This document shows positions 6,984-27,496 of a stretch of 32,918 nt of DNA, one piece after another (positions within the stretch are counted from its first letter, which is position 1; every line of letters begins with the position of its first letter). Both the position numbers and the translations under genes were made by a program. The DNA is from a virus. The stretch lies in the IMG/VR virus record IMGVR_UViG_3300029787_000192, positions 1 to 32,918 of that record, one strand, 5' to 3'. A model generated the notes under the pieces. The model was given only the letters and a program-made list of their open reading frames with translations, was not told where the DNA came from and searched no databases.

Positions 6984-8639
6984 CTATCGACCGAGTTGGT
7001 TTGTAGGATTTACGAAATTACCGAAAGCGCCGAAAGCTTGTAGCCCCGTTCCAAAACCCTCTTGCATTGGAGAGGGCGGCATTCCGAAATTGGTTGTAAA
7101 CTGGGTTGTGCCAGAGGGCACCATGCCAGCGAACGGCAGTAGAGCTTGATATTGCGCTAAAGGCGCCATGCGCGCCTGATCCAAATCTCTACGTGTGGCG
7201 TCTAGCTCACGCTGACGCAGACCTTGTTGCATACTGCCAATACCCATAAGACTTGCAACGTCGGCTGTGCCCGCTCTTTGCGCTTGGCCTCCTAATCCAG
7301 CTAATGTGCTGCCATACCCAGACTGCGCGGCGCCGAGTGTGGCACCACCTGCGGCTTGCTCGCGCCCTATCTGACCAAATTGACTCGCGAGAGTCCCAGC
7401 AACGTCCATGCCTGTAGATCCTGCCGTGCCTCGAGCGGCCGCCTCTGATAGACCCAAGTTGCTGAGTCTAGACCCAAGATCCGTCCCTGCACCAAAGCGA
7501 GATTGTGCAGAGCGAGAAAGCTGATCAGTGAGCCCTGTCTGAGCGCCTAGCTGTTCTCGAGCTGTTCCACGCACTAAATCACCAAACCCTGTGCCCGCAG
7601 CAAAATCTTGTCCGCGCAAACTGGCCAGCCCTGTGGCCGCGGCTCTTTTAGCCTGGCGGTCTCGTTCATCTTCACTGATCGCCGTCTGTTGAGCTCTTCT
7701 GAATCCTTCTGAGCGTAATCCGCCGACCTGCTTTGCGAGACCTCGACCTAAAGCTTCAGCTCTTTCAGCCGCACTGAGACGCGCGCGCGAACCGAAAGCT
7801 GATTCCCCGCCTGTCGCAACATCTCTGGCAAATTGCGCCATGTCTTGCTTCGCTAACCCCTCAGTCGCGTCTTGAATCATCTGCTGGACCACCTGGTCCT
7901 CGAACGGATCTTGAAGTCTTTGCGTTGCGCCAATGATGTCGAAGTCGCCCGTCGTGTCTTCTAAAAGCTGTCGCGACTCACCAAGACCTCGTCGTAAACG
8001 AGCGGTCTCTGCAAGACCAATGTCCCGTGCACGCCCCAGGTCCATTCCAAACCGTTGTGTATCGCGCACACCGCGCCTTTCAAGATCACTTAAATCGCCA
8101 CGTAATCTTTCCTCTGCGGCAATCGCACGACCTCTGCCCTCTTGGATACCGCTCATGGCATCCTGTAAGGCGAGATCACGTTGATCGAGAGCAAACCTAG
8201 AGCCCTCCCGAATAGCCTCAAGTCCTTGACCTGAAGCGAGGGCTTGATCTGCAAGCCCCTGACGAATCGACCCAATACCTTCGCGGCCTAACGCCATCGC
8301 TTCATCAATAAAGGGCTGTTGAATACCTATGTTTTGTCGAGCAAGGTTAAAAGCACGGATTTGGTCAGGTGAAAATCCTGCCGTTTCCGTAGGAATAATG
8401 ATTGGACGCCCTTCCTCGTCGAAGAAGGTGCGCTCGGCTGCACGGAAGGCGCCGGGCAAAAAGCCGCCTTGTCCATCCAGACCAAACAAAAATTGCATGG
8501 TGATGGGGTCTAAACGACTCTCTGTCTTTACGACATCACTGACAAAAGGTTGAGCTGTGTCGTCCACCCCAGGGTCATCGACTTCACCCCCCTCTTGCAT
8601 TCGCCGCACTCGGGCAAGTTGTCCTGGAGTCATAATCAT
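6984..8639 (-). CDS. Ala/Gly/Arg-rich internal virion protein (551 aa)
   Basis: This 551-residue, strongly helical protein is dominated by Ala, Gly, Arg and Gln, with heptad-like stretches such as EAIREGSRFALDQRDLALQD. Around 265-310 it contains QDPFEDQVVQQMIQDATEG and later GESAFGSRARLSAAERAEALG. Segments of this kind (a P-x-E-x-x-V-V block followed by a GSRARL-type block) are frequent, from memory, in marine phage structural proteins. The C-terminus is Gly/Phe/Pro-rich. Near the N-terminus it has RRMQEGGEVDD, an example of a GG-x-V tag seen in several neighbours. The start is supported by AGAGGT eight bases upstream and overlaps the upstream gene by 4 bases. It is a likely internal core or tail-interior protein. 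Confidence 0.65.
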   Translation of the reverse strand: MIMTPGQLARVRRMQEGGEVDDPGVDDTAQPFVSDVVKTESRLDPITMQFLFGLDGQGGFLPGAFRAAERTFFDEEGRPIIIPTETAGFSPDQIRAFNLARQNIGIQQPFIDEAMALGREGIGSIRQGLADQALASGQGLEAIREGSRFALDQRDLALQDAMSGIQEGRGRAIAAEERLRGDLSDLERRGVRDTQRFGMDLGRARDIGLAETARLRRGLGESRQLLEDTTGDFDIIGATQRLQDPFEDQVVQQMIQDATEGLAKQDMAQFARDVATGGESAFGSRARLSAAERAEALGRGLAKQVGGLRSEGFRRAQQTAISEDERDRQAKRAAATGLASLRGQDFAAGTGFGDLVRGTAREQLGAQTGLTDQLSRSAQSRFGAGTDLGSRLSNLGLSEAAARGTAGSTGMDVAGTLASQFGQIGREQAAGGATLGAAQSGYGSTLAGLGGQAQRAGTADVASLMGIGSMQQGLRQRELDATRRDLDQARMAPLAQYQALLPFAGMVPSGTTQFTTNFGMPPSPMQEGFGTGLQAFGAFGNFVNPTNQLGR

Positions 8640-10324
8640 GCGGCCGACCTCTTTTCTTTTGGCTTGTCCGCATATTCAGCGAACAAACCCATCATGTCGT
8701 ACATTAAGTTTGTGCCTTTCTCTCGGCTTTCAGCACCGTTAGGTGTCAGCGTTACAATCCCACCGTCACTCTTCTGCATATCAAAAGCGCCAGCGCCACG
8801 CACAGCACGGCCGGTCATCACAAACTCGCCATCCGATAGCATCGCAGGTATGTCATCGCTGATTTCAGTCCCTGGCCCCGCGATCTTGCCATCCATCCGT
8901 TGGAACTCAGCCATATCGACGTTGCCACCGTCCTTAAACGCCATCACTGGCCCCCCATAACGCAGGGTTTCCACGCCGGGGATCGGTTGAGGTGTCTCTG
9001 TCTCTACCGCCCGCTCAGGCGTTGCTCGACCGCCACTCAGGGTTGGTATGGTGCCTCTCGGAAGCAAACCGAACTCCACTGGGTTTGGAGCGGGCTTACC
9101 CATACGACGGGCTATCTCTGCCTCGATGTTGTACCGACCCGTTGCTCCTTCTTGCGTTAAAGGTGTAAGTGGCACGCCCCTACGATTTTTTGCATCTTCG
9201 TAGGCAAGCTTTCCAAGAGCACCGGCTGCGCCTAGTGCGCCCAAGGTGCCCAACGTGCCAAGCCCGCCAGCACCACTGCTTGCTAGACCAGCGAGGTTCG
9301 CAAATCGACCCAAAAGACCGGGATTTTCTTCTTCTGTTGCCTCCGCTATTTCAGCGTCTGTAGCGCCCGACGCTCTTGCTTGATCGACCGCTTCTTTTGC
9401 TTGTGGGCTTGTCGCTGCTAATTGATCTAACAAACGACGAAAATAATCTTGACTTCCCTCCATTCCTGAAACACCCCCGTAGGTAGAGCCTTGACCGCCC
9501 AAAACACCACCAGCTAAAGGGTTTGAAAGAGCGCCACCTATGGTGCTTAGTGCTGACCCCGTGCCGCCAGCAAGTGCTCCTTGTGCAGCGGGCGATAAGC
9601 CTGGTATACCCAAACTACCAATACCCTTGAGCGCAGTAGTCAATCCACCACCAACGGTGCTCACTACTCCACTCAAACCCGGCACGGCAGATAGCGCACT
9701 CCCTGCCAAACTGCCGATACCACCAAGCGCCGCGCCCAAAGCAGTTCCAACTCCAGGGATAAAGACCGCGAGAGGCGCTACTTTTTTGACGACTTTTTTT
9801 ATACTTTTGAAAGCTTTTTTGAAGAAACCAAATTCTTCTAAGCCAGTAATGGGATTGAGACTGGCAATGCCCGCTCCGACAATATAAGCCTCTGGATCTA
9901 AATCAAGCTCTTTGAATTTTGCACCGACCGTGGCTTCGAACTGTGCGTCGTCAAAAGCTTCTGGTGGCATGACGACCTCGCCGACACGCAAATGAGCAAG
10001 ACGAGTGTCTCCCCCTCTTCCTTGTTCAGCCAACATCATGGCTTGTTCAGCCATCGGTGCCGCGCTTTGAGTGGCAATGTTTTCAGTCGTGTTTTCTAAA
10101 ATTTGACGCTCTAACGGATCATCCGTTGCGTCCCGCTCTGCCATCAAAGCGTTTATGGCTTGTTCTAAATCGTTGGTTGGAGGCGCGGCCTCTATCATCA
10201 TCGACGGAATTGAATCCACCTCTCCACCGCGCTGAAAATTAGACACAGGACCCATGACAGGAGGAAGGCCGCTTTCTCGTTCTTTCGCGGCCAAAATGTT
10301 CATTAACGCATCGTTCAATTCCAT
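8636..10324 (-). CDS. Virion protein with SDDIPAMLSDGEFVM module (562 aa)
   Basis: This 562-residue protein is probably structural. In order it has an N-terminal FQRGGEVDS tag (30-38), an LRVGEVVMPPEAFDD segment (about 111-125), a basic strip (KKAFKSIKKVVKKVAPLAV) running into a Gly/Ala hydrophobic region (FIPGVGTALGAALGGIGSLAG), and further Gly-rich repeats (GTLGTLGALGAAGALG). The C-terminal module has KDGGNVDMAEF followed by GPGTEISDDIPAMLSDGEFV and TGRAVRGAGAF. From memory, the IPAMLSDGEFV...AVRGAG block is widespread in marine phage virion proteins of unknown function. The amphipathic basic plus hydrophobic region could interact with membranes during DNA delivery (inference). It shares one base with the 103-aa gene upstream (TAATG). 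Confidence 0.68.
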   Translation of the reverse strand: MELNDALMNILAAKERESGLPPVMGPVSNFQRGGEVDSIPSMMIEAAPPTNDLEQAINALMAERDATDDPLERQILENTTENIATQSAAPMAEQAMMLAEQGRGGDTRLAHLRVGEVVMPPEAFDDAQFEATVGAKFKELDLDPEAYIVGAGIASLNPITGLEEFGFFKKAFKSIKKVVKKVAPLAVFIPGVGTALGAALGGIGSLAGSALSAVPGLSGVVSTVGGGLTTALKGIGSLGIPGLSPAAQGALAGGTGSALSTIGGALSNPLAGGVLGGQGSTYGGVSGMEGSQDYFRRLLDQLAATSPQAKEAVDQARASGATDAEIAEATEEENPGLLGRFANLAGLASSGAGGLGTLGTLGALGAAGALGKLAYEDAKNRRGVPLTPLTQEGATGRYNIEAEIARRMGKPAPNPVEFGLLPRGTIPTLSGGRATPERAVETETPQPIPGVETLRYGGPVMAFKDGGNVDMAEFQRMDGKIAGPGTEISDDIPAMLSDGEFVMTGRAVRGAGAFDMQKSDGGIVTLTPNGAESREKGTNLMYDMMGLFAEYADKPKEKRSAA

Positions 10325-14623: not shown

Positions 14624-14943
14624 GACGTGGTAACCTCCACACTGCCGACACTAGCAGTGATGGCAAAAGTTTGCAAAACTGTGCCTAATTTACCACTTCC
14701 TGTATTTGTGTACACAGTAAACACTGTGCTGTCATTTCCATCTGCCGCTTGATCGGGCCGGGTTACTTGCAAAGCTTGGGGATCAATCGGCGTCGGCTTG
14801 GGCATGAGCTGAGGGTGTTTTGGGGAATACTGATCTGGTCCGACTAGCAGTCCGTCCCACGTTTTTTTCATGTCTTTGAGGCGATAGCGAAACCCCGTGA
14901 TGTCACAGATCCCATACGCATTTTTGTTCGAAGCGTAAGCCAT
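14620..14943 (-). CDS. Small neck-cluster protein with ICDITGFRYRLKDM motif (107 aa)
   Basis: This encodes a 107-residue protein. The N-terminus YGICDITGFRYRLKDMKKTWDG and GPDQYSPKHPQLMP form a block I recognise from other marine phage genomes, always without a known function. The C-terminal half is beta-rich and Thr/Ser/Gly-rich (STVFTVYTNTGSGKLG then AITASVGSVEVTTS), resembling the C-terminus of the 103-aa protein at 10324-10635 (AITAGVGAVTVSTP). It overlaps the downstream gene by 4 bases and the upstream stop by one, with no Shine-Dalgarno of its own, so translation is probably coupled. It is a likely minor structural protein of the neck. Confidence 0.7.
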   Translation of the reverse strand: MAYASNKNAYGICDITGFRYRLKDMKKTWDGLLVGPDQYSPKHPQLMPKPTPIDPQALQVTRPDQAADGNDSTVFTVYTNTGSGKLGTVLQTFAITASVGSVEVTTS

Positions 14944-15638
14944 TACGCTATGGTATAGCCGCGTAAGTCTGGGGCCACTCGAAATGAAGCGCGGTCCTCA
15001 TCCTGACTCAAAGCTCGCTCAAACTCCTCTTCATAGAGTTGCTTGAGCATACCCACCTTTTCAGGCGCACGCTTGAGCGCCAAATAGTACGCGAGCCCAG
15101 CCGCCAAACACGGATAGAACCTGAATGGGATCTCCATTGTGTTCGCGCCTACGTCAGCGTCGTCTATGCGACTAAGTGCATTTAAATATAGCTCATATTT
15201 GCTATTTTGATCTGGCGCGGGCCAGACCGTAATGGTTGGGCTTATTTGTTTATCGATCAAATATTGGTTGGGCTTACCCGTCGTGCTTTTGGTAGAGATA
15301 TTGGCGTATTCTGAACGTGACATCCTAGTGATTGGCACGTCCGTCGATACCCCGCCTAGCGTCTCTCGAATGAAAACATCGAGTACGTCGATCGTGGCGG
15401 TGGGTGTGGTGGTATCAATAGTGTAGACGGTCGTGTCTTTGACCATCGTCAAAACTTTTTGATTAATAGTCCATTGGTTCAGACCACGGTTTGCCCACTC
15501 TGCCAGCATCAAGTTCATCGACCGGGTGGCGGTTTTGAGGTCATAGCCCGTGCGTAATTCTAAACCGCAACGCTCAAACGCCTCTTCGACGTAGTCTGCT
15601 ACGTCAAGCTCAAAATCTTTACTCCCGCTCACCGTCAT
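14943..15638 (-). CDS. Putative head-tail connector / tail-tubular-A-like protein (231 aa)
   Basis: The ATG at 15638 is preceded by GGAGA and gives a protein starting MTVSGSKDFELDVADYVEEA. The alternative start 45 bases upstream lies inside the previous gene. Residues 16-60 (AFERCGLELRTGYDLKTATR then NLMLAEWANRGLNQWTI) are a strongly recognisable neck-protein block in marine phages. A beta section (TMVKDTTVYTIDT, VFIRETLGG) and the helical PCLAAGLAYYLALKRAPEKV, LYEEEFERALSQDEDR follow. The family is treated as an adaptor that joins portal and tail. It overlaps the preceding gene by 20 bases and is followed by a second adaptor-like gene (13973-14623) two genes on. Confidence 0.78.
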   Translation of the reverse strand: MTVSGSKDFELDVADYVEEAFERCGLELRTGYDLKTATRSMNLMLAEWANRGLNQWTINQKVLTMVKDTTVYTIDTTTPTATIDVLDVFIRETLGGVSTDVPITRMSRSEYANISTKSTTGKPNQYLIDKQISPTITVWPAPDQNSKYELYLNALSRIDDADVGANTMEIPFRFYPCLAAGLAYYLALKRAPEKVGMLKQLYEEEFERALSQDEDRASFRVAPDLRGYTIA

Positions 15639-16317
15639 CGTCTGTCTCCGCGTACAGGTTGTCGAACACTTGGTTGACATCAAGAGTGTAGTCTAAATCG
15701 CTTTTGCTGTAATGGATATGCTGGGATGGGCGGAAGTCTGGCGCGCCTTCCCCAGTTTCAAACCAAGCGGGATGCGTGACGCGCACGCGGTTGTTGGGTA
15801 GTGCAACGATGTTGCCAGTCCACGGCCCTGCATCAAGTAGCTCAAGCACATGGCTTTGTTTGTGTTGTGCCGGGTCGTCTGCGATTTCGTTGTTGGTGTA
15901 ATCAACGGTGAAAAGATACTTAGCGGGATACATTTCACCATCGATTTTGGCCAACCACGGACACGGTGTGCAACGATCAAGCACATACACCGCATGATCT
16001 CGCGATGAGCAGTCCCAAGGTTGTGCAGCCCACACAGGCATTGGGTCAGGCCACTCCTCAAGCGGCGTGTCACCAACGAGCGCAGTAATCGGCATGCGAG
16101 CCCACATCGCACCACCATGCACGTTCGGTTCATTGTCATCGTCATAGGTCTCTGCACCCGTGAAGATAACTTGAAAGCTCAAGCACCGCGTCGGCATCGT
16201 GGTCACGGCGATGGCCATCGCATGAATAAACTCACCGTGATATTTGGCGTGATTGTGCGTGTACTCTTTACGAACCCAACATTTGAAATAGGGAATGTTG
16301 CTCTGTAGATACGCCAC
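15619..16317 (-). CDS. Conserved unknown protein (MAYLQSNIPYFKCWVR type, 232 aa)
   Basis: This 232-residue protein begins (GTG start) AYLQSNIPYFKCWVRKEYTH, a block I recognise from many uncultured marine phage genomes, where it has no assigned function. It is aromatic- and acid-rich (EWPDPMPVWAAQPWDCSS, CTPCPWLAKIDGEMYPAKY), with several Cys (CWVRK, CLSF, DCSS, CTPC) but no regular metal-binding spacing beyond one CxxC. The middle has beta strands (KYLFTVDYTN). It always seems to sit in the neck/adaptor cluster, so it may be structural or an assembly enzyme. It is followed by the connector-like gene with a 20-base overlap and begins 2 bases after the Lys/Gly-repeat gene. Confidence 0.75.
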   Translation of the reverse strand: MAYLQSNIPYFKCWVRKEYTHNHAKYHGEFIHAMAIAVTTMPTRCLSFQVIFTGAETYDDDNEPNVHGGAMWARMPITALVGDTPLEEWPDPMPVWAAQPWDCSSRDHAVYVLDRCTPCPWLAKIDGEMYPAKYLFTVDYTNNEIADDPAQHKQSHVLELLDAGPWTGNIVALPNNRVRVTHPAWFETGEGAPDFRPSQHIHYSKSDLDYTLDVNQVFDNLYAETDDDGERE

Positions 16318-16319
16318 GC

Positions 16320-16595
16320 TTAACGGCCATACAGTCCACTATTCTTGTTGGAGGGCTTTCTCATGCCACCTGCGGCGCCGCCTTTGGCATAGCTTTTTGT
16401 GGCCATCTTGCCACCTTTCGCCATACCCTTTGCTTTCATTTTGCCGCCCATCGCCATACCTTTGGCTTTCATTTTGCCGCCAGCCATCATCCCTTTTGCC
16501 TTCATTTTCCCACCAGCCATCATTCCTTTGGCCTTCATCTTGCCGCCAGCCATCATGCCTTTAGCTTTCATGCCTTTCTTTTTGTGTCCCGCCAT
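16320..16595 (-). CDS. Lys/Gly/Met tandem-repeat basic protein (91 aa)
   Basis: The ATG at 16595 follows GGAG by eight bases (CAGGAGTAAGTGAC then ATG). The 91-residue protein consists mainly of six 11-residue units, residues 7-72, with consensus GKMKAKGMMAG (variants end MAMG, MAKG, SYAKG), plus a short Gly/Arg/Ser tail ending SGLYGR. It is extremely basic, has no acidic residues in the repeat and is probably disordered, so DNA, RNA or membrane contact is plausible. From memory, similar K-G-G-rich short proteins are frequent in marine phages. It lies in a cluster of small basic proteins (to 17432) inside the virion genes. No function is established. Confidence 0.78.
   Translation of the reverse strand: MAGHKKKGMKAKGMMAGGKMKAKGMMAGGKMKAKGMMAGGKMKAKGMAMGGKMKAKGMAKGGKMATKSYAKGGAAGGMRKPSNKNSGLYGR
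16380..16577 (-). repeat. Six tandem 33-bp coding repeats
   Basis: Six contiguous 33-bp units encode residues 7-72 of the Lys/Gly/Met protein. Units two and three are nearly identical in DNA, while the outer units diverge, mainly at third codon positions and in the MMAG/MAMG/MAKG ending. This suggests expansion by unequal exchange or slippage followed by drift. On the plus strand the repeats show as recurring GCCTTCAT and TTTGCCGCC blocks. Confidence 0.85.
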
Positions 16596-16708
16596 GTCAC
16601 TTACTCCTGCTTTGAGATCGTTTTTTTCGTCCTGCACAGTGAGCTTTCTGAGAAAACCCCCGTGGATTAGAACAGTTTACCTTGCGCTTTCGCGCCGCGC
16701 TCCATTTT

Positions 16709-17068
16709 TTACCCACGCGGCACCCGCGTCATTTTTTGCTTGCTAGGCAAAATAGCACCACACCCACGCGCTTGTATCATAGTGACAGCACCGCCATCGC
16801 GTGCGTAAGTAGGTACGTTTGTCGGCCTACCACCCACACCTTGGGGCTTTGCTCGCTTTCTTCTGACCGCACTTTTTCTTTCGCCAGCGGTCATCTGTTT
16901 AGCTTCAGCACGCGGCACACATTTCGGATACTTACGCTTTGAGCCTTTGGTCTTTGCGCGACCGCACGCTTGAAACTTGCCGTCTTTTTTTGGTGCGCCT
17001 ATATCGACCCAGTCGCCACCTTTGCCTTTACCAAACCATTTTTTCAAACCACCTTGAGGTTTAGCCAC
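16709..17068 (-). CDS. Small basic protein with KYPKCVP block and C-terminal RGCGA module (119 aa)
   Basis: This encodes a 119-residue, very basic protein (GTG start) overlapping the preceding gene by 8 bases. Residues 8-72 contain LKKWFGKGKGGDWVDIGAPK, CGRAKTKGSKRKYPKCVP and MTAGERKSAVRRKRAK. From memory this is a compact family of unknown function common in marine phages, with two conserved Cys (35 and 50) that could bind metal or pair. Residues 92-119 are a separate module, GGAVTMIQARGCGA followed by a KMTRVPRG end, nearly identical to the C-terminus of the upstream gene product. The modular layout suggests the tail is a shared tag. A 113-base gap with no gene separates it from the next gene. 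Confidence 0.78.
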   Translation of the reverse strand: MAKPQGGLKKWFGKGKGGDWVDIGAPKKDGKFQACGRAKTKGSKRKYPKCVPRAEAKQMTAGERKSAVRRKRAKPQGVGGRPTNVPTYARDGGAVTMIQARGCGAILPSKQKMTRVPRG

Positions 17069-17432
17069 GGGGAACTCTCGTCATTTTCTTTTTGCCCGGC
17101 ATCATTGCACCACAACCACGGCTTTGCACCATAACAGTGCCGCCGTCCCGCATCCCTTTGGCTTGTTTTGCCATGCTCTTGGCGATAGCCGTGCCGCGCT
17201 TTTTTTCATATTTACTCAGCTTGCCATCTTTGTCCAAATCGCTTTTTGCTGGGTCAAGCGTCACCTCTCCACCGCTGGCGCCCTTATATTTTCCGCCCAT
17301 GCGCTTGTACTCTTGGACTAAGTAGCCTGAAGAATACGCAGACGGTGTTACGTCAAATTTGCGCTTCATCTTTGCTTTAGCTTTTTTGTAGATAGATGGA
17401 TTAGCTACGTTGTCAGGTATTTTACTTGCCAT
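17061..17432 (-). CDS. Small basic protein with EF-hand loop and C-terminal RGCGA module (123 aa)
   Basis: This 123-residue protein has three parts. Residues 1-50 hold SIYKKAKAKMKRKF, PSAYSSGYLVQEYKRMGGKY, a block familiar from marine phage small proteins. Residues 65-76, DLDKDGKLSKYE, are a canonical 12-residue EF-hand loop with Asp at 1, 3 and 5, Gly at 6 and Glu at 12, implying Ca2+ binding. Residues 97-123 are GGTVMVQSRGCGA and KMTRVPRG, the module shared with the next gene. The start is backed by GGGAG upstream. The protein is too small for a classical paired EF-hand, so Ca2+ might be structural or may bridge to another virion protein. Virion association is inferred only from position. 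Confidence 0.78.
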   Translation of the reverse strand: MASKIPDNVANPSIYKKAKAKMKRKFDVTPSAYSSGYLVQEYKRMGGKYKGASGGEVTLDPAKSDLDKDGKLSKYEKKRGTAIAKSMAKQAKGMRDGGTVMVQSRGCGAMMPGKKKMTRVPRG

Positions 17433-20887: not shown

Positions 20888-21805
20888 TTACGCCCCTTGA
20901 GAGCCGTAAATCCCACGCCAGTCGGAGAAGCCGAACGAGTACCTCTCGCGCGCCTTATAGCGTATGTTGCCTGTTGTAAAGTCAGGCTCCATGCTGGTCT
21001 CCATCGGAGTACGCTGGAACATCTTCAAACCTTCACCCGCATCAGTGACGCTGGTCAAGATAAAGAAGGCATCGGGATCAGCCAAGTAGTGGTTGACCGT
21101 GTACCCACCTGGCAACACGCCCGTGTTACGGATCGCGTTGATATCGTTGTCAGCCGTTCCTGAACGCAGTGTTGAGTTCAAAATCCGATCGGCAACAAAT
21201 ACCAGTTGAGGCGGCACAACCAATTTGGTTGCTTGGACCGAAATGGTCAGACCTTTGTCATCGGTAAATGTACTGATGTCAATCAGCGCATCTTCCAACG
21301 AAGTTTCATTCAGGTCAGCCATCGAGGTCGCACGGTTTGCGGCAGTGCCACCACCCGCAAGCGGGTGAGCCGTGTTGATCAACGATACGCCATCACCACC
21401 CGTGAAGCTGGATGAGAACGCATTGTTCAAAACGTCCGCACCTTTCACTTCCTTGGTGTTCGCCATAGATCGGGCCAAAGCCTTCACATAGCGTTTACCT
21501 AACGAATCGTAAAGATTGTCCTCCACAGCTTCGTCGGTGAGGGCAAATGCTAAAGCCACCGTATCGTGCGTATACCTAGCAGTGAATGACTCACTTGCAT
21601 TGTCGAACGCGACACCTTGACCTTCCGTTTTGGTCGGCGCACCGCCAAATCCGGTGATGAGTACCTCTTCTTCGAATGCACGCTGAGAGTCTTCGATAGC
21701 GAATATTTCTTCATATTCGCGGTCATAGTCATTATAAGAAAGCCCGAACAAACTGTTCAATCCTGGTTCGAGTTCTTTAGCGAGCTGTGCTCTTGAAATA
21801 GCCAT
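20888..21805 (-). CDS. Major capsid protein
   Basis: This 305-residue protein is read as the main head shell subunit. N-terminal helix QLAKELEPGLNSLFGLSY is followed by FEEEVLITGFGGAP, FTARYTHDTVALAFALTDEAVEDNLYD, KRYVKALARSMANTKEVKGA, the INTAHPLAGGG segment, and a C-terminus YSFGFSDWRGIYGSQGA. The ARYTH.T.AL.FA.T.EA.EDNLY...RY..ALARSM..TK and W.GIYGSQGA blocks are those of phage major capsid proteins, likely HK97-fold. AAGGAG precedes the ATG by about eight bases. It is followed by a strong terminator and lies after the decoration-like and scaffold-like genes, the usual head-gene order. The function is assigned from pattern and context. Confidence 0.88.
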   Translation of the reverse strand: MAISRAQLAKELEPGLNSLFGLSYNDYDREYEEIFAIEDSQRAFEEEVLITGFGGAPTKTEGQGVAFDNASESFTARYTHDTVALAFALTDEAVEDNLYDSLGKRYVKALARSMANTKEVKGADVLNNAFSSSFTGGDGVSLINTAHPLAGGGTAANRATSMADLNETSLEDALIDISTFTDDKGLTISVQATKLVVPPQLVFVADRILNSTLRSGTADNDINAIRNTGVLPGGYTVNHYLADPDAFFILTSVTDAGEGLKMFQRTPMETSMEPDFTTGNIRYKARERYSFGFSDWRGIYGSQGA

Positions 21806-22890: not shown

Positions 22891-23853
22891 TTAACTTGCC
22901 TCTCTTTGTGCGATTTTTTGCTTCTCTTTGGCGACTCGCTGCAACCATGCCTCTTCTGACATATTGTGCGGCTTTAAGCCTCTGAGACGCTCGAGCTCTG
23001 ACTTCGAAAAGCTTACGCCATTCTTTTTGCCTTGTGTTTTCGACCGACCTCCTGTGGAGGTTGATGCAACTCTTTGCACAGCGGGTTGCGCTTCACTTCT
23101 AACGGTCTGACTCCTAGTTTCAGAAGTTCTGGTGTGAGGATAAACCGTACCTACACGGCTGTCCAACTCCTCATAATATTCGTCTGAGCCAACATCGTAG
23201 CCCTCGTTCGCGAGGTTGTAATGAACGTAGTACGCATATTGCGTTGCCTTCATATCCTCTTCGTCGTCTTTATTTGCATACCAAGGGTTGCGGTCATGCC
23301 AAGCCAAGGCGTCCTCGGTCGGCTGAATCTCTTGTTCTGCGGGCTGTTCTGGTTGTTGATAGACGGGCTGTTCATTGCCCTGTGATATATATTCTTGCTC
23401 CTGAGCCGCTGCTTGTTGTCTTGCTTTCGCAACCCGCAGTTTTTCTTTTTGGATCGAGATGTCACTTTGTAATTTTGACGCTTTAGTAATAAGTTCCGCG
23501 TCGCCGCTCTCAACAGCTTTACGATAAACATCATCAATTTGCGCTTCTTTGCTCGTAATTGCTTCTTCTTCTTTGGCTAAAACTTGATTCGACTGCTGTT
23601 GTGAGTACGTGCGATATTGTTGTAACTCCGCCTCTTTTTGCAGTGCAATTTGTTCGAGCTGTTGAGCGCGTTGTTCTGCCTCTCGCGTTTTGGCGTTGAG
23701 CTTGTTGATGCGCTTGGAGACCGACTTGGTATACGTTTCAAGCTCATCATCGCCGCCTGATCGCGACGGCGACTCCACGGGATCTTCAGTGACCTGAATC
23801 TCTAACTGCTCTTCAATAACCTCTTGTTGCTCTGCTGCTTGATTCTCAATCAT
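22891..23853 (-). CDS. Scaffold-like capsid assembly protein (320 aa)
   Basis: This encodes a 320-residue, highly charged, helical protein. An acidic N-terminus (EQQEVIEEQLEIQVTEDPVE) is followed by a long coiled coil (about 35-150, for example KRINKLNAKTREAEQRAQQL). A Gln/Pro linker (YQQPEQPAEQEIQPTED) leads to an aromatic block (ALAWHDRNPWYANKDDEEDM) and a C-terminus rich in Lys/Arg with LRGLKPHNMSEEAWLQRV. The acidic start, coiled coil and short basic C-terminal helix match scaffolding proteins that bind the coat via the C-terminus. It is preceded by the GroES-like gene (4-base overlap) and lies two genes before the coat. Function is by composition and position. Confidence 0.78.
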   Translation of the reverse strand: MIENQAAEQQEVIEEQLEIQVTEDPVESPSRSGGDDELETYTKSVSKRINKLNAKTREAEQRAQQLEQIALQKEAELQQYRTYSQQQSNQVLAKEEEAITSKEAQIDDVYRKAVESGDAELITKASKLQSDISIQKEKLRVAKARQQAAAQEQEYISQGNEQPVYQQPEQPAEQEIQPTEDALAWHDRNPWYANKDDEEDMKATQYAYYVHYNLANEGYDVGSDEYYEELDSRVGTVYPHTRTSETRSQTVRSEAQPAVQRVASTSTGGRSKTQGKKNGVSFSKSELERLRGLKPHNMSEEAWLQRVAKEKQKIAQREAS

Positions 23854-24269
23854 TTGAAACTCACTATGTCTGCGGGATGTAGAATGGTGCCGATGACCTC
23901 GTCATCATTGATAATACGGACCTCTTCGCCGTCCTCCAATTTAAAGCGCGCGCCAGCATAACGCCCGATGAGCACCCATTGGTTCTCCGACACCCAGGGC
24001 GTGTCTCCAAACTTTTCGGTGTCACCGTAGCAAAGCGGCCCCATTTTTAGGACTAGCGCGACGACGGTGGCAAGCGCCTCCCGATCGACGGTTTCTTTAA
24101 GTAGATGAATACCACCATCAGTAGTTGCTTTGCCTTTCCAAGGCATGACTAGCATCCGCCAGCCTGTGGGTTGAGGCAGACGCTCTAGTGCGCTTTTTTC
24201 GAGCAAATCGGGGTTGAGCACCATTTCACTGGCAGGAACGTAGGCGGAGGCAACGGTGGATTCAGTCAA
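23850..24269 (-). CDS. GroES/Cpn10-like co-chaperonin
   Basis: This is a GroES-fold protein that likely works with host GroEL to fold the capsid protein, as T4 gp31 does. The core of about 105 residues reads GWRMLVMPWKGKA, GIHLLKETVDREALATVVALVLKMG, YGDTEKFGDTPWV, NQWVLIGRYAGARFKLEDGEE, VRIINDDEVIGTILHPADI. The G.V...G....(D/G)..KF.......GD.V..GRYAG......GEE.RI.NDDE(I/V) pattern is Cpn10-like, with the mobile loop at GKATTDGGIHL. I chose the TTG at 24269 because AAGGA lies eight bases upstream and the preceding gene stops one base earlier (TAAATTG). An ATG at 24308 is possible but would overlap that gene by 38 bases. No GroEL is visible. Confidence 0.82.
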   Translation of the reverse strand: MTESTVASAYVPASEMVLNPDLLEKSALERLPQPTGWRMLVMPWKGKATTDGGIHLLKETVDREALATVVALVLKMGPLCYGDTEKFGDTPWVSENQWVLIGRYAGARFKLEDGEEVRIINDDEVIGTILHPADIVSFK

Positions 24270-24270
24270 T

Positions 24271-24453
24271 TTAGATGTCCTTGTAATACTCACGGATCGT
24301 GTCTTCAACCAAGTTTATAATAACCAGCTCTCCCTGCAAAGATTTATAGTGCTCTATATCTTTGAGCATACCGTCCATCAGCACTTCGCGTATTAGCTCT
24401 CGACGCTCAGATAAAATCCGTTTTAGGCGGGAGCCTAGATCAATGTCGTCCAC
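24271..24453 (-). CDS. Small helical protein (60 aa, DVLMDGMLKD type)
   Basis: This encodes a 60-residue, probably all-helical protein, starting with GTG: DDIDLGSRLKRILSERREL, IREVLMDGMLKDIEHYKSLQ, GELVIINLVEDTIREYYKDI. From memory, this (M)DDIDLGSRL..IL...R......LMDG.LKD.EHY..LQGEL family is conserved in many marine phages between portal and scaffold genes. The GTG shares one base with the stop of the previous gene (TAGTG) and its stop is one base from the GroES-like start, so the three genes are coupled. No function is known to me. A head-assembly adaptor is possible. Confidence 0.78.
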   Translation of the reverse strand: MDDIDLGSRLKRILSERRELIREVLMDGMLKDIEHYKSLQGELVIINLVEDTIREYYKDI

Positions 24454-24623
24454 TAATCGCGCTCATGAAAGTCGTAACCGCGTGTCGCTGCACCATAACC
24501 GCGCGCTTTGATCACACGATAAGTTCCGCCAACTGTGCGCCGTACCGGGTCAGGCATAGTGGGCGTGGTCTTCATCTTTTTTGTAGGCGTTTCTACTTTT
24601 TCAATTCGAGTCATATCTTTCAT
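24453..24623 (-). CDS. Very small basic protein with GG...RGYGA module (56 aa)
   Basis: This encodes a 56-residue protein: residues 1-20 MKDMTRIEKVETPTKKMKTT, then PTMPDPVRRTVGGTYRVIKA (21-40), RGYGAATRGYDFHERD (41-56). It is basic, low in hydrophobics and likely unstructured apart from a short beta hairpin around GGTYRVIKARGYGA. The GG-x(5)-[IV]-[KQ]-[AS]-R-G-[YC]-G-A segment is the same type as in the proteins at 16709-17068 and 17061-17432. A weak AAGGG lies upstream. It starts 3 bases after the stop of the H1-like gene. From memory, K.RG.GAA.RG..F tails are common on tiny proteins in marine phages. Function unknown. Confidence 0.75.
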   Translation of the reverse strand: MKDMTRIEKVETPTKKMKTTPTMPDPVRRTVGGTYRVIKARGYGAATRGYDFHERD

Positions 24624-24626
24624 GGT

Positions 24627-24998
24627 TTATCCCTTTTTGCGTGGTGATTTTTTCGGTGTGGCTTTTTTTGCCGTAGCTTTTTTTGCAGGGGCTTTTTTCG
24701 CTGGAGCTTTTTTTGGTGGCGGCTCTGAAGCGACCCTAGGCTCTACAGCGGGTGGGGCTGCAACTTCTACTGCGACCTCAGGGGTTGCAGATACAATAGG
24801 TGGTGGTGGTTCATGGCCGTGTATTTTTGCCATTTTTGTGGCAATACGATGCTCACTCATCATTTTTTTGTGTGCTGCGTCGGCCATTGATTGTTCAACA
24901 ATCTTGGCTTCTATTTCGCGGACCAATCGCTTTTCTTCTTTGAGCAAAGCTACTGTTTCACGCACTGTGGAATTAGATGAAATAAATTTTCCTGCCAT
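24627..24998 (-). CDS. Histone H1-like Lys/Ala/Pro-tailed protein (123 aa)
   Basis: This encodes a 123-residue protein. Residues 1-65 are a charged helical region (VRETVALLKEEKRLVREIEA, KMMSEHRIATKMAKIHGHEP). Residues 64-90 are Pro/Ala/Val-rich (PPPPIVSATPEVAVEVAAPP). The C-terminal 28 residues are KKAPAKKAPAKKATAKKATP and KKSPRKKG, the repeat of linker histone H1 tails and of bacterial H1-like proteins. Such tails bind DNA without sequence specificity. GGAGG lies before the ATG, a strong ribosome-binding site. It is the gene immediately after the portal, so a role in DNA packing or in stabilising the genome in the head, or as a portal/terminase accessory, is inferred. It is not recognisable as a small terminase. 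Confidence 0.75.
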   Translation of the reverse strand: MAGKFISSNSTVRETVALLKEEKRLVREIEAKIVEQSMADAAHKKMMSEHRIATKMAKIHGHEPPPPIVSATPEVAVEVAAPPAVEPRVASEPPPKKAPAKKAPAKKATAKKATPKKSPRKKG

Positions 24999-25000
24999 GC

Positions 25001-27496
25001 TTACCTCCTGCGGCTCTGCATATCAAGCAGTTTTAAGTCTGCTTGTTGTTCTAAACGTCGTAAAGCGACGTCTAATTTGTCGTCTGCGACCTCTTTTTGA
25101 GTGTCGATTCGCTGTTTCGATATCTCACTTTCCAGCAACTTTTCCCTTGCTCTAGCTTCTTGTTTTGCTTCGAATTGTTCATTGTCTACATCAATGGCTT
25201 TTTCACGCAACTCTAGCTCTTGCTGACGTATTTGCACCAAAGGATCTGTCTCATCACCTTGGCCGATCGACTCAAGCAGCTCTTGTGTCAACTGTGCCAG
25301 GATCGGTGCTGAGAATTGCTCTATCTGCATTTGAATCTGACCCATTTGCATCTGCATTTGATCTGGCGGTATCTGACCCGCTTGCCCAGCCTGTTGCAAT
25401 TGCTGCATTTGCTGACCAAGCTCTGGTGGTATCTGAGCTTGAGCCATTTGACCTGCCATGAACTGCAAGTGCTGCATCATGTGACCAATAATCATTCCTT
25501 GCAACGCAGGATTCTGTTTCACCACGTCGGTCAAAAACAGAGAGCGGTGAGCGTCGATATGGGCTTGATGGTTTTGTTGCTCAAAGGCCTGAGCGGGCTG
25601 ACCCATCAAAAAGCCGTTGTTTTCGATCCCTGCATCTATCGGTTGAGGCATCGGTGGCGGGGGTGGTGGCTGAATCAAGCTATCTACGTCGTCCACACCC
25701 AACGCCGAATACATGCGCCGATACGCTTCGTAAATACCCTGAGGACCGTGTATCTCTGGGTTAGATTGAACCATTTGCAACAGCTCTTGCGCCATCGTGA
25801 TCCGTTGAGACTGACTAAAAATGTTGGGGTCTGATACGGGTATGACGTCTACGCGACCATCGAAGTCTTGCGCCATGATTTCTTGTGGGCCGTTGCGCGC
25901 AACAAATGGGTAGCTTTGAGGTAAATACTCTGCAAAGACTTTTGCGAGGAGCTGAAACTCAAGCTTCTGACTGTAGTGCAACCGCTTGTGGATGGCTGAC
26001 ATGACTTTGGTGCCACGCTCAAGCAAAGCGACTGTGGTTCCCACAGGCATGGCTTGATTCATGTCGCCCACGTTCATATCAGCGATGCTTGCAAACCGCT
26101 TGCCTGACTCGACCAAAAGCCCGAGCAGACTCATCAATACGTTGCTGGGTTCTTTGATCGGCAGTGGTATCAAGTTTTCTCGTAGTGAGGCGCCCGTCGT
26201 GTCAATGTCACGGAACTCACCAGGTTGTAGCGGGTTGTCCTCGTCACGGATACGCATTCCTCGCGCTTTAAAACCCGCGGGCAAGTTCGCTAGCGTGCCC
26301 GCATCAATTAGCTGTCGCAGTATCGAAGTCGCTGATTTGCTAATCCCACCAATCATGTGGCTGAGGCCAAGCCCGTAAAAACCGAGCCCCGGCAAAAACT
26401 TGTACTGCACAAAATAGTTGATTTTCATTTTCTGCGGGTCTTGCTCGAGATAGTTGCGGCGTATAGACAAGACTTTTTGTGATTGCTCATCAAGGGTGAC
26501 GATGTAAGGTAACTTGAGACCTGTAGGCTCGCCGTCTGCTCCCATATCCTCAAAGCCAGGGATATCCAAAATGGTGTGTGTCTCAAAGACAACATAATCT
26601 CTGTTTTCTTGATAAGAGGGCTCCATCCCCTCAATCTCGTCAATCTCTTCTTCGACCTCGCTCCGCATGTAATTGATTGAGCCACCCTTCAGCTCAACGT
26701 CAGCATAGAAACCGTTCAGTTGTTGCTTCTTGATTTCGTTGCGGCTCATGTTCAGAACATGTGTGACACGCTCGGCCGTGAATAAGTCAGCGGCTTCATA
26801 CGGGACAATTAAGTCTTGCGGCTCGATAAATTTGCTCGCCGCTTTGTTCATAGAGGTGTCGTAGTAAACTTTTTTGAACGCAGATCCTGCAAGCGGCAAA
26901 TAAAAGAGCAGCATATCCAATTCTGGATCGTACTCTTGCATCACATTCATAATGTAGTAGTTCATGAATTCTTGAACGCGGACTGCTTGCATTTCGACTT
27001 CAGGCGTGCGGACGCCAACCACTTCTGTTTTTACCGGGCCTTTGGCGGGTAACAATTCTTTGTATGCTTGGGCCTGAAACTGCGTGACTGACTCCGCTAG
27101 TATAGGGTGAATGACCCCAGTCGATCCTTCGAAGGGTTGACTGCGAGATTCATCGAACTTCATGCCGAGATATTTGAGACCATCCGTATAAGTCTTTTCC
27201 CACTCGCTGCGACTCTCCTTATCTGACTTGATGGAAGACAGCACGTCATCGGCCAGCTTTGACAAGTCCGATGGTGAGATAAATTCAACGAGATTGGCGT
27301 TGAAATCTGTGGCGATCGGCTCGTCAACGGCGTCTATTTCATCATCGATGAGGATGCTTTCTTCTGATATTAGTATTTCTGCGGCACTGCGTATTTCATC
27401 AGCCCGCGTCATTTCAGGCTCAATTTCCATCGCGCTGCCCATTGGCATCACATCGGGGTCTGTCTCAGTGCCTAAACCTTTTTTTTCAATCGCCAT
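25001..27496 (-). CDS. Portal protein, P22-type
   Basis: This is an 831-residue portal, the dodecameric ring at the packaging vertex through which DNA enters and leaves. After an acidic N-terminal 90 residues come the segments SEWEKTYTDGLKYLGMKFDE, GVIHPILAESVTQFQAQAYKELLPAKGPVK, EFMNYYIMNVMQEYDPELDM, PLAGSAFKKVYYD and LPGLGFYGLGLSHMIGGISKSATSILRQLIDAG, all typical of P22-like portals. From about 600 the chain is Gln-, Pro- and Met-rich with repeats (QMQQLQQAGQAGQIPPDQMQ) and ends in a charged helical barrel-like region. At 831 residues it is longer than P22 gp1 (about 725). AGGTG precedes the ATG. It overlaps TerL by one base. Function assignment is strong. The C-terminal region may extend into the head as a barrel. 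Confidence 0.9.
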   Translation of the reverse strand: MAIEKKGLGTETDPDVMPMGSAMEIEPEMTRADEIRSAAEILISEESILIDDEIDAVDEPIATDFNANLVEFISPSDLSKLADDVLSSIKSDKESRSEWEKTYTDGLKYLGMKFDESRSQPFEGSTGVIHPILAESVTQFQAQAYKELLPAKGPVKTEVVGVRTPEVEMQAVRVQEFMNYYIMNVMQEYDPELDMLLFYLPLAGSAFKKVYYDTSMNKAASKFIEPQDLIVPYEAADLFTAERVTHVLNMSRNEIKKQQLNGFYADVELKGGSINYMRSEVEEEIDEIEGMEPSYQENRDYVVFETHTILDIPGFEDMGADGEPTGLKLPYIVTLDEQSQKVLSIRRNYLEQDPQKMKINYFVQYKFLPGLGFYGLGLSHMIGGISKSATSILRQLIDAGTLANLPAGFKARGMRIRDEDNPLQPGEFRDIDTTGASLRENLIPLPIKEPSNVLMSLLGLLVESGKRFASIADMNVGDMNQAMPVGTTVALLERGTKVMSAIHKRLHYSQKLEFQLLAKVFAEYLPQSYPFVARNGPQEIMAQDFDGRVDVIPVSDPNIFSQSQRITMAQELLQMVQSNPEIHGPQGIYEAYRRMYSALGVDDVDSLIQPPPPPPMPQPIDAGIENNGFLMGQPAQAFEQQNHQAHIDAHRSLFLTDVVKQNPALQGMIIGHMMQHLQFMAGQMAQAQIPPELGQQMQQLQQAGQAGQIPPDQMQMQMGQIQMQIEQFSAPILAQLTQELLESIGQGDETDPLVQIRQQELELREKAIDVDNEQFEAKQEARAREKLLESEISKQRIDTQKEVADDKLDVALRRLEQQADLKLLDMQSRRR

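Follow-up and report, generated by a model that had tools for sequence, protein, structure and literature searches.

The late operon and its genes

The window analysed here is a whole IMG/VR virus record of 32.9 kb, and its minus strand carries the late operon of a podovirus. The operon starts with terminase and portal genes, which are followed by genes for a lysine-rich protein of 123 aa, a tagged protein of 56 aa, a GroES-like protein, a scaffold-like protein and the major capsid protein (MCP). Then come decoration-like proteins, two tagged proteins, a KAKGM-repeat protein, an adaptor and further adaptors, followed by a P22-gp10-like protein and ejection-like proteins (Table 1). Several of these roles are assigned from gene position. 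Relatives of the phrog_12985 adaptor are annotated as 'tail adaptor' or 'Pam1 adaptor protein'. The window's MCP shares 57-64% identity with its counterparts in DSL-LC04, 023Pt_psg01, HTVC023P, HTVC027P and CRP-901/902. Most of the named relatives within this capsid lineage have an annotated GroES-like co-chaperonin as well.

Table 1. Positions of the tagged proteins, their tags and neighbouring late genes in the window
Feature	Position	Strand	Remarks
562-aa protein	8636-10324		DGEFVMTGRAVRGAG about 60 residues from the C-terminus
Head-tail adaptor	14943..15683	-	phrog_12985, gp4-like; neighbour of A/N tags; candidate partner
105-aa KAKGM-repeat protein	16320..16637	-	class C ending KPSNKNSGLYGR
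119-aa protein	16709..17068	-	phrog_23735 body (residues 6-89) and class A C-terminal tag; GTG start
Class A tag of the 119-aa protein	16709..16795	-	GGAVTMIQARGCGAILPSKQKMTRVPRG, stop codon included; profile match 16721-16804, E 4.7e-15
123-aa protein	17061..17432	-	DUF5872 body (residues 11-53), EF-hand-like linker KSDLDKDGKLSKYE and class A C-terminal tag; ATG start
Class A tag of the 123-aa protein	17061..17144	-	GGTVMVQSRGCGAMMPGKKKMTRVPRG, stop included; profile match 17073-17153, E 1.6e-15
Major capsid protein	20888..21805	-	phrog_371; candidate partner
Scaffold-like protein	22891..23853	-	phrog_28737, from position and charge; candidate partner in prohead assembly
GroES-like co-chaperonin	23850-24308		phrog_3188, within the head gene cluster
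56-aa protein	24453..24623	-	class B C-terminal tag KARGYGAATRGYDFHERD; second gene after the portal gene; profile match 24456-24524, E 7.5e-12
Lysine-rich 123-aa protein	24627-24998		beside portal; histone-H1-like lysine/alanine/proline repeat ending (KKAPAKKAPAKKATAKKA..)
Portal protein	25001..27496	-	phrog_1216; candidate partner

Two adjacent proteins with one ending

The genes of the 119-aa protein and its 123-aa neighbour overlap by 8 bases on the minus strand, and the last codons of the upstream gene's tag overlap the start of the downstream gene. A first-pass annotation of this DNA had noticed that the two proteins have unrelated N-terminal parts and nearly the same ending. Profile comparison (hhalign) agrees: the bodies align with a probability of 0.15%, which is no match, and the tails with a probability of 99.2% (E 8e-20). 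We used direct profile comparison in place of automatic single-linkage clustering of the carriers, which fused the two body families. The shared ending is about 28 residues long, with the core RGCGA and the terminus KMTRVPRG, and 20 residues are identical between the two tails. We call it class A; its consensus, read by inspection, is GG-V--QARGCGA-M--KRK-TRVPR.

The 123-aa protein falls in DUF5872 (PF19197; 31.3 bits against a Pfam gathering cut-off of 27.5, in the residues given in Table 1 only) and the 119-aa protein in phrog_23735 (PHROG profile E 3.9e-23). Neither match extends over the tail. Both bodies also exist without the tag (DSL-LC04) or with other tails, and an algal virus, too, has a listed DUF5872 protein (PMC12085832). 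Of the 21 codons, stop included, that encode the same residue in both tails, 10 differ between the two genes, meaning that the tail is not the product of a recent copy event. Within the tail pN/pS is about 0.16-0.23 (three sets), so that the tail is conserved by purifying selection on the protein.

Across the aligned DUF5872 proteins, the middle part alternates between the EF-hand-like segment and a KGLPKLPxxVRNKMGFM linker. A linker like the latter also stands ahead of a class B tail in locus L403. Bodies, linkers and tails of these proteins all appear, as far as the alignments tell, to have been shuffled.

The 56-aa protein ends in GGTYRVIKARGYGAATRGYDFHERD and had been listed as having the same core. 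A related ending is indeed there, but it belongs to a separate class B, whose core is RGxGAATKG. We do not claim that A and B tags are homologous: when ORFs not selected for their tail were ranked with an HMM of the A tails, B and N tags (for the latter, see below) came after the true A tails at E of about 0.3-9. A further ending, class C, has the form NMGLFGR on phrog_23735 bodies.

Nothing in Pfam, PHROGs, NCBIfam or PADLOC covers the tags, so they are unnamed in these known families, as the first-pass annotation had supposed. The tails alone have no match in PHROGs and the A and N tag profiles none in the PDB, while PADLOC, searched for known anti-phage defence proteins, gave 0 matching families. 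With tagged queries of 30-59 aa, tblastn found none in named phage genomes, a weak test for such short sequences. No description of the tag was found in the open-access literature. AlphaFold2 gave both tails a pLDDT mostly near or below 50 from shallow alignments, and fold searches with the two low-confidence models (119 aa and 123 aa) yielded nothing usable. Low pLDDT counts for little when alignments are this shallow; it is compatible with a tail that would be disordered until bound. The tag is real and general, and apparently undescribed so far. The segment of the 562-aa protein shown in Table 1 has a superficial likeness to the tag core; around it, the protein matches tape-measure protein families in their later portion.

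Position of the tag and exchange of carriers

We scanned public viral contigs three times with DNA patterns of the tag core only, ignoring position; the counts in this paragraph are among the matches listed. Of 98 distinct ORFs with the class A pattern RGCGA[IVM]M.., 97 have it at a distance of 17-21 residues from the stop codon. For the class B pattern RGxGAAT[KR]G the distance is 15-17 residues in 115 of 118 ORFs, and in the other 3 the motif is at the N-terminus. A third motif, SRGMG[AD]IxPSKxP, was first noticed in the neighbours of class B loci; it starts at residue 4-5 in all 120 ORFs, and we call it the N tag. PHROG matches of N-tagged bodies begin at about residue 34, outside the tag, and fall in three different families.

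The class A tag is carried by DUF5872 and phrog_23735 proteins, by MQGEE(G/D)M proteins of 85-90 aa, and by MSTRQ.. (70 aa), MSKSRQ.. (87 aa), MKIDEKK.. (60 aa), MARRKFAP.. (about 200 aa) and other proteins. Searching phage collections with the motif and listing what it is fused to, as had been proposed, thus returns several unrelated bodies and both termini. Descent of the motif within a single family, which would have told against a detachable tag, is not what is seen: the carriers are not one family. Their median pI is about 10-11, but the N-terminal part of MQGEE.. carriers is acidic, so not every body is basic.

One body can also take different tails. Those of phrog_23735 end in class A, in class C or in a lysine-rich sequence. 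At the 6 loci where phrog_23735 has class C and the preceding gene is covered, class A is kept on the neighbouring DUF5872-type protein. Within the sequence fragments of 8 loci, from a sub-lineage with a lysine-rich phrog_23735 ending, no A, B or N tag was found, which suggests that plain positive charge may substitute. At L211 (2086-2596) and L197 (3329-3836), phrog_23735 ends in GGLARRRRHG and an overlapping new gene ends in GGLARRKRSIARGCGA..; it looks like an acidic segment was put between body and tail, splitting one gene in two.

What the proteins share is a terminal module that can be transferred, and it is more general than first noticed. The earlier description of it as a detachable tag on small basic proteins is well supported: carriers are unrelated, the terminal position is near-fixed, selection is purifying, a single body can exchange its tail, and the same gene slot holds an N-terminal counterpart elsewhere (next section). 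Not all of the bodies are basic.

The adaptor neighbourhood and a probable change of end

Among the matches listed, 99% (A), 100% (B) and 99% (N) of the loci found by pattern carry one or more markers of the window's lineage, and the adaptor lies within about 8 kb at 82-87% of them. Where it is present, again among the matches listed, the tags always share its strand and are never more than 3 kb away; all A tags (89/89) and all N tags (108/108) are upstream of it and B tags downstream in 98 of 102. The first-pass annotation had allowed for a motif that never co-occurs with a conserved partner; instead, the tag accompanies a conserved set of structural genes. We also fetched 43 loci, near relatives of the window, by the adaptor protein alone. 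Reading upstream from the adaptor, an A tag is met in 42 and a C ending in 34 of the 43. The tag persists at these loci while its carriers vary.

Scans of whole records with the tail profiles found A in 12 window-like records (1-2 each) and B in 8. Among 16 records chosen by B or N, all 16 have B, 13 have N and none has A. Since these sets were partly picked by tag, the informative part is that A and N are mutually exclusive among the genomes scanned whole. Furthermore, a profile made from N tags only has as its sole matches below 1e-3 in window-like genomes the A tails of 5 genomes (E 4e-4 to 1e-3). From the common gene slot and this sequence similarity, A and N seem to be one tag that was swapped between ends and kept its place, though the motif is too short to prove ancestry.

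Adaptors of the N-tag phages at L352, L363, L341 and L386 have an insertion of about 70 residues that is absent from A-tag phages and from the other phages aligned. Possibly this insertion is linked to the tag's change of end. We do not claim co-evolution of the two tails of a genome: their agreement looked significant with duplicates included (20 of 5000 shuffles), an effect that was gone once duplicates were removed (2639 of 5000). Without duplicates, tails within a genome are no more alike than tails between genomes, hence nothing points to co-evolution with a partner that changes fast.

Whole-record scans of nine named relatives gave no match to the A, B or N profile in seven. The other two are 023Pt_psg01, with an A tag, and HTVC023P, an isolated Pelagibacter phage whose B tails are on its DUF5872 protein (gp51) and on gp32 (245 aa). 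CRP-901, Pag-Yong1, QDWS535, RW, MW202785 and HTVC027P show no tag despite a related capsid and adaptor, so these structures do not need it. DSL-LC04, a metagenome-assembled genome counted among the seven, has N-terminal RGMG forms on two proteins, missed by the profiles; one of the two is encoded directly upstream of its adaptor. The A pattern also matched one GTDB contig, in an alphaproteobacterial MAG. Among the matches listed, the tag is restricted, with nearly no exception, to one widespread podovirus lineage of aquatic bacteria.

Comparison with known targeting systems

The capsid targeting sequence (CTS) of phage T4 is N-terminal. Diverse small internal proteins of T4 have nothing but this short conserved stretch in common, and it directs them into the core of the prohead (PMC3012670). 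The likeness is that of a short common sequence on diverse small proteins; the tags of the window differ in being C-terminal, with the N-terminal counterpart in other genomes only. Encapsulin cargos have short conserved terminal peptides, usually C-terminal and sometimes N-terminal, that are read by an HK97-fold shell (PMC8346489). Here, too, a conserved short peptide stands at the ends of unrelated proteins. However, by inspection the Family 1 consensus SDGSLGIGSLKRS is absent from the tags, and the setting is a phage and not a nanocompartment. In T7, residues 2-15 of gp6.7 dock on the portal barrel and gp7.3 is at the adaptor-nozzle junction (PMC11784390). These are small virion proteins of a podophage, as the tagged proteins may be. 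By inspection, neither gp7.3 nor the inspected part of gp6.7 has an RGxGA core, and T7 is of another lineage. In design the tags resemble the CTS (compared by description), the encapsulin peptides and gp6.7/gp7.3; by sequence they are apparently members of none of these groups.

What the tag may do

What can be said about a potential function? We see roughly even chances that the tag is a docking or targeting peptide that brings small, mostly basic proteins to a common partner in the head, portal or adaptor. Behind this reading stand the shared tail on unrelated bodies, its near-fixed terminal position, its conservation at the protein level, the exchange of tails, the N-terminal counterpart in the same slot and the confinement to a single lineage. 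The lineage would attach a short terminal peptide to a number of unrelated proteins of the late head and neck operon, most of them small and basic. Free, the tag would probably have little structure. It might be read by a conserved component of the virion or of its assembly, most likely in the region of portal, adaptor and inner head, and the attached body, of whatever kind, would be carried to the prohead or neck. On arrival the bodies could neutralise DNA charge, help to assemble the neck or core, or be co-ejected. The steps that we infer are the binding to a common partner, the presence in the virion and the role of the bodies. A shared destination such as the capsid interior, which the first-pass annotation had suggested, is plausible.

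The strongest rival supposes that the tail is a basic RG extension that binds and condenses DNA with no dedicated protein partner. The high median pI of the carriers, the RG and several K/R in the tails, the lysine-rich ends of some relatives' phrog_23735 with no A, B or N tag in the stretch examined, and the histone-H1-like protein encoded beside the portal would all fit. Nevertheless we find it unlikely: charge alone needs neither an RGxGA core nor a near-fixed spacing to the terminus, the A (or N) tag and the B tag are distinct and each keeps to its own gene slot, and class B tails such as that of the 56-aa protein have little net charge. Docking might also take a narrower form with a defined role, that of an element for assembling or folding the neck: the tagged proteins would serve the portal-adaptor-nozzle complex as chaperones or plugs, and the tag would simply be the surface with which they bind the adaptor. 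The small T7 proteins gp6.7 and gp7.3 act so (PMC11784390), and among the matches listed all 89 A and 108 N genes are within 3 kb of the adaptor, on its strand. Gene neighbourhood is not binding, however; the B tag follows the portal gene in window-like phages and untagged relatives have a related adaptor, which leaves this form distinctly improbable in our judgement.

Another possibility is a functionless relic of local recombination, in which duplication or unequal crossing-over passed the tail from gene to neighbouring gene. In its favour, the two window genes lie side by side, and the overlapping genes of the L211 type look as if something had been inserted into an older gene that had a tail. 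The selection data already weaken this reading (about half of the codons in common are different, and pN/pS is about 0.2), and it would also have to accommodate a spacing to the terminus that is kept across unrelated carriers and a tag that persists while they change; it is very unlikely. Hardly any credence goes to a signal for proteolysis or host interaction, such as a degron or processing site, in place of assembly. A short terminal motif on many small proteins would be the form of a degron as well, but this tag is found at either terminus and is confined to a single phage lineage, where it keeps to the structural operon, and an unsystematic look saw no protease gene tracking it.

If the tags dock, they would be a fresh variant of known terminal targeting peptides. 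Sequence alone would then predict which uncharacterised small proteins of aquatic phages enter the particle, and a podovirus would offer a short handle for cargo loading. Only tentatively do we extend docking to a hitherto undescribed, virus-encoded address system, in which two short peptides, A (or the end-swapped N) and B, at either end, load a changing set of small cargo proteins into the head or neck of an abundant aquatic podovirus lineage. If true, phages would have their own equivalent of the encapsulin cargo peptides, one whose cargo can be exchanged. The swap of ends at a constant place among the genes is a natural experiment of unusual clarity, in which the function of the motif is separated from that of its carrier.

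Variant endings

Proteins of 216-311 aa in loci L139, L151, L152 and L155 end in GGKVRGYGKALRGY or GVGAALKGFGAVR, perhaps a divergent class B tag. L139 and L151 also have lysine-rich phrog_23735 endings.
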